DNA from: Providencia rettgeri
GTDB lineage: Bacteria > Pseudomonadota > Gammaproteobacteria > Enterobacterales > Enterobacteriaceae
Direction of reading: 5' to 3'
Assembly (NCBI RefSeq): GCF_041075285.1
Contig: NZ_CP163512.1
Span: 2,852,001 to 2,916,000 of the forward strand
Length of the DNA stretch: 64,000 nt
Below are positions 10,357-14,510 of this stretch, in pieces. The notes beneath the pieces are model-generated. The model was not told the origin of the DNA. It made no database searches and saw only the letters and a program-made list of their open reading frames with translations. Made by a program: the position numbers and the translations under genes. Each line of letters opens with the position of its first letter. Position 1 is the stretch's first letter.

Positions 10357-12729
10357 ATGCACTCACATTCTCATAAAGAAAATCATACACATACAAGCTC
10401 TTGCTGTTCAAGTACCAGCGCGTGTTCATCTACCGTGACACAAAATAGCACACACGTAAGTAATGACTCACATACTCATGAACATAGCCACCTAAATAAA
10501 CAATCTGATGAAGACGAGGAGTCTCATCGACACAGTTGTGATAGCCATTCAGATCATGATCATCAACATGGCGGAAGCTGTGGGTTAACGGCGAGCACAA
10601 TCAATGACGTTGAGCCTCTGCAAGCGGCAGGGAGACGTTTTAGCTGGGTTATCCGTGGAATGGACTGCCCAAGCTGTGCCAATAAAATTGAAACCGCTGT
10701 AAGCCAAATCGGTGATGTTAAACAAGCTAAAGTTTTGTTCGCAACTGAAAAGTTAGTTGTTGATGCCAATACGGATATCAGTGCCGCGGTACGCTCCACC
10801 GTAGAAGCTGCTGGCTATGAATTACTTGAGGTCGGTGGTAATAGTGCTGCGTCCATCGCACCACCACAAAGCTTACTCAGTGAAGCTAAACCTGTCATTA
10901 TCTTAGCAATATTGATGGCAATCAGTTGGGGAATTGAGGTATTTAGTCCAAAAATCGGCAATATCGCCTTTATTTTAACCACGTTATACGGGTTATACCC
11001 AATAGCCAGCAAATCATTACGCTTAATTCGTACTGGTTCCCCATTTGCTATCGAAACATTAATGACCGTTGCCGCTGTGGGCGCAATTTTTATTCAAGCC
11101 ACAGAAGAAGCAGCCATGGTTATCTTACTGTTTATGTTAGGAGAAATGCTAGAATCCTACTCGGCTGGTCGTGCTCGCCGAGGAGTCAGTGCATTAATGG
11201 CATTAGTCCCAGAAGATGCAGTTCTGATTAAAGATGGGCAAAAAACCACGGTTCCTGTGGCACAGTTACGTCCCGGAGACATTATCGAAGTTGCACCAGG
11301 TGGGCGTTTGCCAACGGATGCCGTATTAGTGTCAGGTTTTGCCAGCTTTGATGAAAGTGCTCTAACAGGGGAATCCGTTCCTGTTGAACGCAACGCTGGC
11401 GAAAAAGTAGCCGCAGGCTGTCTATCGGTTGACCGTGCTGTGCAAATGAAGGTGGTTTCTGAACAAGGGCAAAATGCCATCGACCGTATTTTGCAGTTGA
11501 TCGAGGAAGCCGAAGAACGCCGGGCGCCAATTGAGCGCTTTATCGACCGATTCAGTCGAGTATATACACCGATTATCATGTTGATTTCAGCGTTAGTGAT
11601 TATTATCCCACCTATTTTCTTTGCTGCATCTTGGGAAACATGGATCTACCGCGGTTTAACATTACTGTTGATTGGTTGCCCGTGTGCACTTGTCATATCA
11701 ACCCCTGCGGCGATAACTTCAGCCCTTGCAACAGCAACCCGTCGTGGTGCATTGATTAAAGGTGGTGCAGCACTTGAGCAGCTAGGCACCATTACGACTA
11801 TCGCATTAGATAAAACAGGTACGCTGACGGAAGGGAAACCCCACGTCACTGACTTAGTCCCTGTTGATGGAATGACCGAAAGTGAACTAATTCAAATTAC
11901 AGCGTCTGTTGAGGTCGGTTCCCATCACCCGTTAGCAAAAGCGGTCGTGAACAAGGCGCAAGAACTCTCTCTCACGGTAACCGAAGCACTGGATCGTAAG
12001 GCGCTTGCAGGGAAAGGGGTTGAAGGGTTCCTTAATAACAAGCACATACTGGTTAGTGCACCGAGTCGTTTAGACACGCCATTAGAACAGGGATGGCAAA
12101 GCAAAGTTGAAACACTAGAGGCTGAAGGAAAAACCGTAGTTGTCACACTAGAAGACAACCGTGTCATCGGCTTAACCGCGCTGCAAGATACACTACGCAG
12201 TGACGCAACGGACGCGATGAGTATGCTCAAAGCCCTTAAAGTCAATGCAGTCATGTTAACGGGGGATAACCCTCGCGCTGCGGGGGCAATTGCCGGTCAA
12301 TTAGGTATGGAATTCCGTGCAGGCTTATTACCGGAAGACAAAGTGACTGCTGTGATGGCGCTCAATCGCAACCATAGCACCATGATGGTGGGAGACGGTA
12401 TTAACGATGCCCCAGCAATGAAAGCGTCGAGTATCGGTGTAGCTATGGGCAGTGGGACTGATGTCGCGTTAGAAACAGCAGATGCAGCCCTAACCCATAA
12501 CCGCTTAACAGGCTTACCTGAAATTATAGCGCTATCCCGTGCTACTCGAAAAATTATCCGTGAAAACATAGCGATAGCCCTTGGGCTAAAAGGCGTGTTT
12601 TTAGTCACCAGTTTACTCGGGATCACTGGGCTTTGGGTTGCCGTGCTTGCAGATTCGGGTGCAACGGCACTTGTGACTGCAAATGCGGTACGGTTACTTC
12701 GAGTAAAATTACCTCAAGTGAAAAAGTAG
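10357..12729 (+). CDS. zntA: ZntA, Zn(II)/Cd(II)/Pb(II)-exporting P-type ATPase
   Basis: P1B-type ATPase exporting divalent soft metals across the inner membrane. Residues 1 to about 85 form a His/Cys-rich tail (many HSH and HTH pairs, SSCCSS) longer than in E. coli ZntA (732 residues; 790 here). A heavy-metal-associated domain follows with GMDCPSCANKIE (about 103-114). Then come the TGES loop, the CPC metal-binding motif in IGCPCALVIS, the phosphorylation site DKTGTLTEGKPH, the HP motif SHHPLAKAV, and the hinge GDGINDAPAMK. The C-terminal membrane segment holds the Asp in LADSG expected for the zinc subgroup. Regulated by the ZntR-type promoter just upstream. Confidence 0.97.
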   Translation: MHSHSHKENHTHTSSCCSSTSACSSTVTQNSTHVSNDSHTHEHSHLNKQSDEDEESHRHSCDSHSDHDHQHGGSCGLTASTINDVEPLQAAGRRFSWVIRGMDCPSCANKIETAVSQIGDVKQAKVLFATEKLVVDANTDISAAVRSTVEAAGYELLEVGGNSAASIAPPQSLLSEAKPVIILAILMAISWGIEVFSPKIGNIAFILTTLYGLYPIASKSLRLIRTGSPFAIETLMTVAAVGAIFIQATEEAAMVILLFMLGEMLESYSAGRARRGVSALMALVPEDAVLIKDGQKTTVPVAQLRPGDIIEVAPGGRLPTDAVLVSGFASFDESALTGESVPVERNAGEKVAAGCLSVDRAVQMKVVSEQGQNAIDRILQLIEEAEERRAPIERFIDRFSRVYTPIIMLISALVIIIPPIFFAASWETWIYRGLTLLLIGCPCALVISTPAAITSALATATRRGALIKGGAALEQLGTITTIALDKTGTLTEGKPHVTDLVPVDGMTESELIQITASVEVGSHHPLAKAVVNKAQELSLTVTEALDRKALAGKGVEGFLNNKHILVSAPSRLDTPLEQGWQSKVETLEAEGKTVVVTLEDNRVIGLTALQDTLRSDATDAMSMLKALKVNAVMLTGDNPRAAGAIAGQLGMEFRAGLLPEDKVTAVMALNRNHSTMMVGDGINDAPAMKASSIGVAMGSGTDVALETADAALTHNRLTGLPEIIALSRATRKIIRENIAIALGLKGVFLVTSLLGITGLWVAVLADSGATALVTANAVRLLRVKLPQVKK

Positions 12730-12914: not shown

Positions 12915-13841
12915 ATGGTAAAACAAACCAATTCAACACCCCATGACGCGGCCTTTAAAGGTTTTATGTCTAAAGTTGACAATGCGCGTGACTTTTTTGA
13001 TATTCACCTTCCTACCAGCATTAAGCAATTATGTCATTTCGATACATTATCAATAACAAACACATCCTTTATTGATAAACAGCTACGTTCTCGTTTTTCA
13101 GATATATTGTATACAGTCGAAACGCAGCAAGGTGATGGTTATATTTATATGTTAGTTGAACACCAATCAACTCCAGATAAATTGATGGGATGGCGGTTGA
13201 TGCACTACGCATTTTTAGCCATGAATCAGCACTTACAACAAGGAAATAAAGACTTACCGCTGGTCGTGCCCATTTTATTTTACCATGGGAAAATGAGCCC
13301 TTATCCTTATGCTCAACCTTGGACACATTGCTTTCATTGGCCTGATATTGCGTCAGATTTATATAACAAACCCTTTCCAATTGTTGATGTCACGGTCATT
13401 GATGACAACGAGCTAGTCAATCATCGCAAAGTCGCCATTATGGAGCTTGCAATGAAACATAAAGACTTACGTGATGAGTTTCAACAGGTTGTCCCCTTGT
13501 TGGCTCAAGCGCTAAATCAGCACTATAATAGTGACGATGATATCATCACTATTCTTAATTATCTCTTTATCACAGTGGACTCAATCCATTTTGAATATAT
13601 TGTTCAGCAACTGGGTGAAGCAACAGAAAAACATCAGGGGGTTATTATGAATATTGCTCTACGTTTACAAGAAAAAGGGCGTTTGGAAGGACGGTTGGAA
13701 GGTCATAAAGAAGCTCGTCAGCAAGCTTATCAACAACAACTTGCAACTGCTCAGTACCTATTAAAAAACGGCATCGACATAGAGTTAGTAATTAAAAGCA
13801 CAAACTTAAGCCGTGAAGAAGTTATGTCCTTACAATCATAA
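12915..13841 (+). CDS. Rpn-family recombination-promoting nuclease (RpnL)
   Basis: Member of the Rpn/transposase-31 family, PD-(D/E)XK nucleases described in E. coli as stimulating RecA-independent recombination and acting in phage defence. The start is the ATG at 12915 (MVKQTNSTPHDAAFKGFM), giving 308 residues, the usual family length; the open frame upstream of it lacks family sequence. Catalytic-core elements are RFSDILYTVE and MLVEHQSTPDKLMGWRL (about residues 58-95). The C-terminal 64 residues form a Gly/Glu/Gln-rich helical tail with an internal start of its own. The tail is repeated immediately downstream. Confidence 0.9.
   Translation: MVKQTNSTPHDAAFKGFMSKVDNARDFFDIHLPTSIKQLCHFDTLSITNTSFIDKQLRSRFSDILYTVETQQGDGYIYMLVEHQSTPDKLMGWRLMHYAFLAMNQHLQQGNKDLPLVVPILFYHGKMSPYPYAQPWTHCFHWPDIASDLYNKPFPIVDVTVIDDNELVNHRKVAIMELAMKHKDLRDEFQQVVPLLAQALNQHYNSDDDIITILNYLFITVDSIHFEYIVQQLGEATEKHQGVIMNIALRLQEKGRLEGRLEGHKEARQQAYQQQLATAQYLLKNGIDIELVIKSTNLSREEVMSLQS
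13647..13841 (+). CDS. Putative intragenic small protein RpnS in the rpn tail
   Basis: In frame inside rpn, AGGGGG followed after a short spacer by ATG (13647) would initiate a 64-residue protein starting MNIALRLQEKGRLEG and ending EEVMSLQS. In E. coli, rpn genes encode such a small C-terminal product from an internal start, and it blocks the toxicity of the full-length nuclease (established knowledge for that family). Here the claim rests on the strong Shine-Dalgarno placed within a coding sequence and on preservation of the same signal in the duplicate copy. Expression is not shown. Confidence 0.65.
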   Translation: MNIALRLQEKGRLEGRLEGHKEARQQAYQQQLATAQYLLKNGIDIELVIKSTNLSREEVMSLQS

Positions 13842-13943
13842 AGCAGCATACTTCATTGTAAGTTTATTACTCTGAACTCGATTCAGTTTGAATATATTGT
13901 TCAGCAACTGGGTGAAGCAACAGAAAAACATCAGGGGGTTATT

Positions 13944-14126
13944 ATGAATATTGCTCTACGTTTACAAGAAAAAGGGCGTTTGGAAGGTCATAAAGAAGCT
14001 CGTCAGCAAGCTTATCAACAACAACTTGCAACTGCTCTGTACCTATTAAAAAACGGCATCGGCTTAGAATTAGTAATTAAAAGCACAGGTATAAGCCACG
14101 AAGCACTGAGCTCATTGCCCAAATAG
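13944..14126 (+). CDS. Free-standing RpnS-like small protein (duplicate of rpn tail)
   Basis: A 60-residue frame (MNIALRLQEKGRLEGHKEA... ending ALSSLPK) preceded by the same AGGGGG-spacer-ATG as the internal start in rpn. It lacks the second RLEG unit and differs in its last 25 residues, for example GIGLELVIKSTGISHEALSS against GIDIELVIKSTNLSREEVMS. It could supply an antitoxin-like tail independently of the nuclease gene. Alternatively it is a non-functional 3' remnant. No promoter of its own is evident; it could be read from the rpn message since no terminator separates them. Confidence 0.6.
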   Translation: MNIALRLQEKGRLEGHKEARQQAYQQQLATALYLLKNGIGLELVIKSTGISHEALSSLPK

Positions 14127-14255: not shown

Positions 14256-14510
14256 TTATAACCCGCTGGCCTTTTTACGCAACAAATAACGGTAAGGGGC
14301 ACTTTCAGCGTCAACTGCGAGCAAGTCATGTTCCATAAAACGACAAAAGCCGGGAATATCACGTGTCGTCGCTGGGTCATCCGCAATAACCAGTAACGTC
14401 TCGCCTTCTGCCATATTACGAACAGTCTTACGAACTAACATCACTGGCTCAGGGCAGCGTAAGCCTAGTGTATCAAGGGTTTTAGTTGCGTTAGCAAATA
14501 AATCAGACAT
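14256..14510 (-). CDS. tusA: TusA, sulfur-carrier protein
   Basis: Accepts persulfide sulfur from IscS and relays it to TusBCD for tRNA 2-thiouridine synthesis and to other sulfur pathways. The 84 residues show the family core [13 protein letters not shown] with the catalytic Cys near residue 19, then [23 protein letters not shown] (split by position 25-45) and PGFCRFM. It is divergent from yhhQ, as in the E. coli yhhP-yhhQ neighbourhood. Confidence 0.96.

Follow-up and report, generated by a model that had tools for sequence, protein, structure and literature searches.

The 3' end of the rpn gene of Providencia rettgeri was found duplicated in tandem, and the second copy formed a free-standing frame of 60 codons whose number of four-residue repeats differed from that of the adjacent nuclease gene. 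The two copies made a mosaic with an identical middle and diverged ends, the frame of the second copy was intact, and such copies recurred in Providencia, E. coli, and further genera. The pattern suggested gene conversion within an older duplication, and the repeat difference suggested a role of the free tail other than silencing its neighbor. The window, which is the whole stretch of DNA analyzed, comprised 64,000 nucleotides (contig NZ_CP163512.1, positions 2,852,001 to 2,916,000); plain coordinates refer to it.

The rpn Gene and Its Internal RpnS Frame

The rpn gene was located at 12915–13841 on the plus strand and encodes RpnL, a full-length Rpn nuclease/toxin of 308 amino acids. Residues 8–209, the N-terminal two thirds, matched PF04754 (Transposase_31) with an E-value of 2e-70; TIGR01784 was matched above its cut-off, and the RpnA/ISNCY models below theirs. 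No family of the PADLOC defense models (2023) was found at E ≤ 1 with either RpnL or the free copy. The neighbors of rpn are presumably zntA-like (10357–12729, plus strand) and tusA-like (14256–14510, minus strand), names that were read from the ORF translations. RpnL kept D11, D63, E82, Q84, and R94 (window numbering), and all five were invariant in alignment A1; the accessible text of Kingston et al. (2017, PMC5350276) gives these as the PD-(D/E)XK-type residues mutated in RpnA. By its sequence, the window gene is an rpn gene (YhgA-like, PF04754) of the phage-defense type with a predicted nuclease role.

Near the C-terminus of RpnL, an in-frame ATG at 13647 with the Shine-Dalgarno stretch AGGGGG (13636–13641, plus strand) opened an internal RpnS frame of 64 amino acids, a gene within the gene, at 13647–13841 (plus strand). 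Shortly after this start, helix 1 of the tail carried four-residue repeats, which vary in number and were present here as two units, RLEG RLEG, at 13680–13703 (plus strand). Internal RpnS matched the C-terminal part of TIGR01784 with an E-value of 2e-6, below the model cut-off. The intragenic toxin-antitoxin system RpnA_L/RpnA_S likewise combines a PF04754 nuclease, an internal start, and a tail with four-residue repeats in helix 1; the window differs in having an additional second, detached tail gene.

The Free-Standing Tail Gene

The free-standing rpnS-like gene was taken from the ORF list at 13944–14126, with the Shine-Dalgarno stretch AGGGGG at 13933–13938, the ATG at 13944, and a single RLEG unit at 13977–13988, all on the plus strand. 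Its 60-residue product was 82% identical to internal RpnS. As a preliminary description of this DNA had noticed, the two products differed in RLEG number (one versus two) and in the last third (IELVIKSTNLSREEVMSLQS versus LELVIKSTGISHEALSSLPK). The C-terminal part of TIGR01784 was matched with an E-value of 6e-4, below the model cut-off, and no Pfam family was found at E ≤ 10 for the 60-residue protein, including DUF4351 (PF14261), the name of some separate RpnS. Similarity to PDB 7th0, a 49-residue chain named RpnA that we take to be RpnA_S, was weak (sixth-ranked match, E 0.5), and a search with full-length RpnL did not find 7th0.

The frame is separate, lies behind rpn, and is homologous to the tail of that rpn, as in the ypaA type. 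The earlier suggestion of a possible detached antitoxin was right in kind, and the arrangement is known. According to the accessible text of Zhong et al. (2023, PMC10327210), separate downstream rpnS copies lie behind rpnE (ypaA) and rpnC in E. coli, these free-standing genes have an independent origin from the adjacent gene, and the ypaA RpnS was detected as protein. The window arrangement is therefore known in kind. A comparison of repeat number between free copy and neighbor was not found in the main text of the literature covered, which took in few subscription journals.

E. coli rpnE-ypaA and rpnC-rpnC_S share with the window a same-strand RpnS-type frame that lies directly behind rpn and is homologous to its tail. 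The homogenized first half is shared by rpnE-ypaA, and unequal repeat number by both rpnE and rpnC. The E. coli loci belong to a different genus and rpn lineage. The window unit takes in roughly 100 bp ahead of the start, whereas the start of the K-12 copy lies 12 bp after the rpnE stop. In Rhs/CDI polymorphic toxins, detached tail-type modules (orphan immunity/tail cassettes) lie behind the toxin gene and can recombine into it; unlike these, the window tail is an antitoxin and dimerization domain and not a toxic domain.

No second cognate nuclease was found in the genome of the window. This genome carries just one other full Rpn, whose tail shared 52% identity with the free protein and was of a different build, which spoke against the earlier proposal that the free protein neutralizes other Rpn nucleases in the cell. 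Elsewhere in the genome, a short rpn remnant with an internal stop was observed (G000:C1:804750-804857). Another free-standing relative of 60 residues (P0006) was 72% identical to that of the window, and in its end it closely resembled the single-copy rpn found in the sister genomes. Between the free copy and the rpn tail, Ka was 0.11 and Ks was 0.22 over 60 codons. In this dN/dS check, which had been proposed earlier, the frame was kept, yet the values pointed to only weak constraint on the window copy.

Duplication and Mosaic Structure

Self-alignment placed the first copy of the duplicated unit within rpn at 13551–13841 and the second at 13848–14126, both on the plus strand. The copies were spaced by 297 bp before and 285 bp after a 12-bp indel that corresponds to one RLEG. 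The duplication and its 297-bp spacing stood as first described, but the unit was nearer 290 bp than the last ~250 bp of rpn. Over 279 aligned sites, 35 differences and this one indel were found. There were 13 differences in the first 39 sites, 22 from site 191 onward, and none in between. Upstream of the identical block, the duplication extended for about 40 bp at 69% identity (13 of 42 sites differed).

The tract 13590–13752 (plus strand) was identical to 13887–14037 save for the 12-bp indel. With the indel passed over, the identical run comprised 151 aligned sites, a length that never arose when the differences were shuffled 20,000 times. Its ungapped stretch of 101 bp (13590–13690 = 13887–13987) included AGGGGG and the ATG in both copies, in agreement with the preliminary description. 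Simple decay of a duplicate and a chance repeat were rejected, since the differences were confined to both ends and the frame was intact. The pattern, already called unusual for simple decay, fits gene conversion: an identical middle with diverged ends points to conversion within an older tandem duplication.

The two nearest genomes, G017 and G020, had one rpn copy at the same place and no free tail. The 3' end of the free copy and the following bases aligned with the end of this single-copy rpn in both, so the free copy lies at the old gene end. In the core, the two window copies differed at 0 of 87 sites, and each differed from L004, the rpn of G017 (the nearest genome found), at 8 of 87. 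The rpn copy differed in the 5' flank from L004 at 7 of 60 sites and from its own duplicate at 13 of 42; the duplicate differed from L004 at 11 of 42. Because the core was identical and the 5' flank of rpn was nearer to L004 than to its own duplicate, the homogenization appears younger than the duplication. The duplication is dated less securely than the homogenization, because the free copy has its 5' part outside the ORF, where evolution may be faster. At the 3' end, all three sequences were about equally distant, with 21 differences in 87 sites between the rpn copy and the free copy, 27 between the rpn copy and L004, and 24 between the free copy and L004.

These alignments are most simply read as an older tandem duplication with a middle that gene conversion homogenized recently. 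The one-repeat difference lies within the homogenized tract and therefore probably dates from the conversion or later. Measured between the same anchors, the repeat segment had 28 residues in the window free tail and in the RpnL of G017 (L004), 32 in the window RpnL, and 44 in that of G020 (L005).

Repeat Number of Free Tails and Neighboring Nucleases

The length of the repeat-bearing helix was unequal in 34 of 35 distinct intact pairs of free tail and neighboring nuclease, and equal in one (L225, first copy). Outside E. coli, the length differences were multiples of four residues in 19 of 20 pairs, the equal pair included; the free copy was shorter than the tail of its neighbor in 10 pairs and longer in 9. 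The difference at L017 (−8) was set by eye. The E. coli two-copy loci read were mismatched in 16 of 16 cases for rpnE and 9 of 9 for rpnC, which gave 9 and 6 distinct length pairs. For E. coli rpnC, where the end alignment was weaker, two of the six differences were multiples of four and four were not.

Several loci were set aside before the count of 35. L022, L024, L025, and L045 were too diverged to align; the copies at L190, L192, L218, L220, L245, and L259 were broken or fragmentary; L076, L099, L102, L114, and L162 were genomes shown again, and E. coli strains with a length pair already counted were dropped likewise. At L123, rpn runs off the end of the record, and the part read was likewise mismatched.

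Shuffling of the 9 distinct E. coli rpnE pairs gave 0.77 expected matches against 0 observed (P(0) = 0.44), so a statistical depletion of matched pairs was not established in this set. Fast repeat slippage would also yield mostly unequal pairs. In the accessible text of Zhong et al. (2023, PMC10327210), one repeat added to RpnC_S or RpnC_L abolishes neutralization, and its addition to both restores it; the evidence for this rule comes from a single protein, RpnC, lengthened by one repeat. If it is general, free tails do not silence their neighbor. The mismatch in 34 of 35 pairs, taken together with the RpnC rule, indicates that free tails are probably not back-up antitoxins of the adjacent nuclease. 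By this analogy, the 60-residue protein of the window probably does not inhibit its present neighbor RpnL.

Recurrence in Providencia and Other Genera

The genus survey covered 24 Providencia genomes, one per species; 23 of them carried Rpn, with 55 near-full-length loci. A tail copy was sought up to 1.5–2 kb behind each rpn. A clear adjacent copy was found at 6 of the 55 loci (the window, L013, L017, L020, L037, and L040), and a diverged one at four (L022, L024, L025, and L045). The frame, a Shine-Dalgarno-like stretch, and an ATG or GTG start were intact in all six clear copies, i.e., the window and five others. Common frameshifting or loss of the start signal, which would have told against the preliminary description, was thus not seen across species.

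The named genome collection held 45 loci, including copies in Moellerella and two Xenorhabdus. In wider searches, which drew on part of each group, at least 157 of 392 genomes matched in the family and at least 30 of 394 in the order, with the best five or fewer candidates scored per genome. From these, 30 loci per search (some shared) and 100 places hand-picked from the top part of the family list were read. A tail-like copy was present at 6 of 47 Rpn frames of the wider set, with the window and Moellerella among the six, and at 11 of 97 further Rpn frames from the hand-picked top of the listed matches, some only as fragments. Outside E. coli, a total of 30 adjacent copies were found at 28 loci: 20 were intact and alignable, 6 were broken or fragments, and 4 were too diverged. 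Three of the 20 intact copies (L180, L181, and L184) stop some four residues short.

Some loci showed further forms. In Moellerella wisconsensis (L072:3443-3901), two RpnS frames, each with the same short leader, stood in tandem behind rpn, and exceeded the tail of their own nuclease by one and four repeats. In Providencia vermicola P8538 (L013:2549-2848), the free copy matched the rpn tail almost perfectly but carried eight extra four-residue repeats. Three Providencia genomes (G005, G006, and G013) carried intact orphan RpnS frames (L060:3500-4050; L061:3000-3500; L062, 3750-4300, reverse strand), and a search of the 8 kb around them found no Rpn frame. These orphans differed from each other by one repeat each.

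Free-Standing Copies in E. coli

The mosaic was also observed in E. coli rpnE/ypaA, with 2–6 substitutions in the first half and 22–27 in the second at 9 of 9 loci compared. Between the free rpnE copies, 132 synonymous and 72 nonsynonymous differences were counted on 37 and 128 sites, respectively. The pairwise sum over 9 haplotypes (10 loci) from related strains gave a pN/pS of about 0.16, which suggests constraint on these free-standing copies. The K-12 ypaA (L068:3817-4002) is annotated as a pseudogene, with "missing N-terminus" in most strains read; its frame was intact and constrained.

Sixty E. coli records were sampled evenly down the ranking. In 25 of them, one short match place was found, and these were read as single-copy rpnE. 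Two of the 25 were read (L124 and L125); both were single-copy, with a nuclease ending in the free-copy type of C-terminus. Of the other 35 records, 15 were read, and all were two-copy, like K-12. Three relatives of rpnE with 87–92% DNA identity came from genomes taken as other Escherichia: the single-copy RpnE of L299 ended like the free-standing type, single-copy L300 was a hybrid, and L301 was broken. The single-copy ends of L299 and L300 imply that a single copy may be ancestral. These sequences suggest either a tail swap by deletion between the repeats or an ancestral single-copy state, and the direction of a swap is ambiguous. Loss of rpnS by deletion or fusion is already mentioned in the accessible text of Zhong et al. 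(2023, PMC10327210). In another pair of genomes, the C-terminal end on the G743 nuclease (L259) was that of the free-standing copy in G686 (L225).

Recombination between the two copies is well supported by these alignments. The earlier idea of the free tail as a donor for tail swapping was borne out to this extent, but a completed swap was only suggested, in other species and with ambiguous direction.

Promoter-Like Site and Probable Transcript

A consensus scan found an intragenic promoter-like site, TTGGCT-18-TATAAT, at 13500–13529 (plus strand) with its −10 element on Tyr-Asn codons. It was one of 8 sites found in the region, against 5.4 expected. Among 232 distinct Rpn proteins scanned, TATAAT was kept in 39 of the 41 genes with the Tyr-Asn motif, against 42% expected from codon use; because the sequences are related, the nominal P of 6e-13 overstates the significance. 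The site lies upstream of the duplicated unit, so the free-standing copy has no second one. The consensus scan found no own promoter in 13842–13943, although one that departs from the consensus may be present. No terminator-like site was found on the plus strand between the two frames. A transcript starting inside rpn is therefore the most likely source of the free copy. Internal and free RpnS would probably be read from one short transcript, and translation of the free frame is probable. The sequence between the frames folded in an ordinary way (z = −1.2; 25 of 200 shuffles folded equally well), and an RNA element there was rejected.

Proposed Origin and Role of the Free Copy

The best explanation starts from a tandem duplication of the rpn 3' end. 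The duplicated piece would have begun some 100 bp ahead of the internal RpnS start and run through the stop codon, and its second copy would have become a separate rpnS gene behind rpn. Gene conversion would later have homogenized the first half, which holds the start signal and helix 1, and during or after conversion one copy would have gained or lost one four-residue repeat. The free protein, probably produced from a transcript starting inside rpn, may be a maintained antitoxin of another register, matching a former or sibling tail, and the free tail may act as a recombination partner that helps to change the nuclease tail. As a whole, this explanation is considered moderately probable. The absence of a free tail from G017 and G020 counts against it, since close relatives manage without one.

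A back-up role, in which the second copy raises the antitoxin dose for the adjacent RpnL, would agree with a copy that is adjacent, on the same strand, 82% identical to internal RpnS, and equipped with the same start signal, and with the lack of a terminator-like site on the plus strand between the frames. However, a selected back-up should be in register, and the copies were out of register in 34 of 35 pairs; one repeat difference abolished neutralization in RpnC (Zhong et al. 2023, PMC10327210, accessible text). This role is very unlikely. Broader immunity, i.e., neutralization of an Rpn of other repeat number arriving from plasmids or sibling strains, would agree with the lengths: each helix length of the free E. 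coli rpnE tails read (13, 17, 21, 29, and 37) was also found in the RpnE of another E. coli strain read, and the window free tail matches the helix length of the RpnL of G017. Rpn-like DNA also occurs on Providencia plasmids, and 67 of 97 matching plasmid records were from Providencia. Nevertheless, no cognate was found in the own genome, an incoming rpn would bring its own internal antitoxin, and RpnA and RpnB antitoxins gave no cross-protection (Zhong et al. 2023, PMC10327210, accessible text), so that broader immunity by itself is judged unlikely.

The copy may instead be a neutral leftover of tandem duplication that is kept identical by recombination and is being lost. Its absence from the two nearest genomes, the 6 broken or fragmentary and 4 too diverged copies among the 30 adjacent ones outside E. 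coli, and the 25 of 60 E. coli records read as single-copy rpnE would fit such a course. A decaying remnant does not sit well with 20 of 30 copies intact, the start signal kept in 6 of 6 clear genus copies, a pN/pS of about 0.16 in E. coli rpnE copies, and intact orphan tails persisting in three Providencia genomes, and a neutral leftover is accordingly thought quite unlikely.

Beyond the best explanation given above, free RpnS genes might be kept out of register on purpose, as a small antitoxin repertoire of other repeat numbers against foreign or former Rpn alleles and as templates for new tails of the nuclease; the two tandem tails of Moellerella wisconsensis would be an example. This is put forward tentatively, as a possible but doubtful extension. 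If it is true, a single recombination would give the toxin a new antitoxin lock, and the cell would still keep the old key. If free RpnS proteins are antitoxins and yet almost never in register, their role would be other than silencing the neighbor. The rapid variation of tails in the widespread phage-defense Rpn family is likely to be fed by recombination between the two copies.
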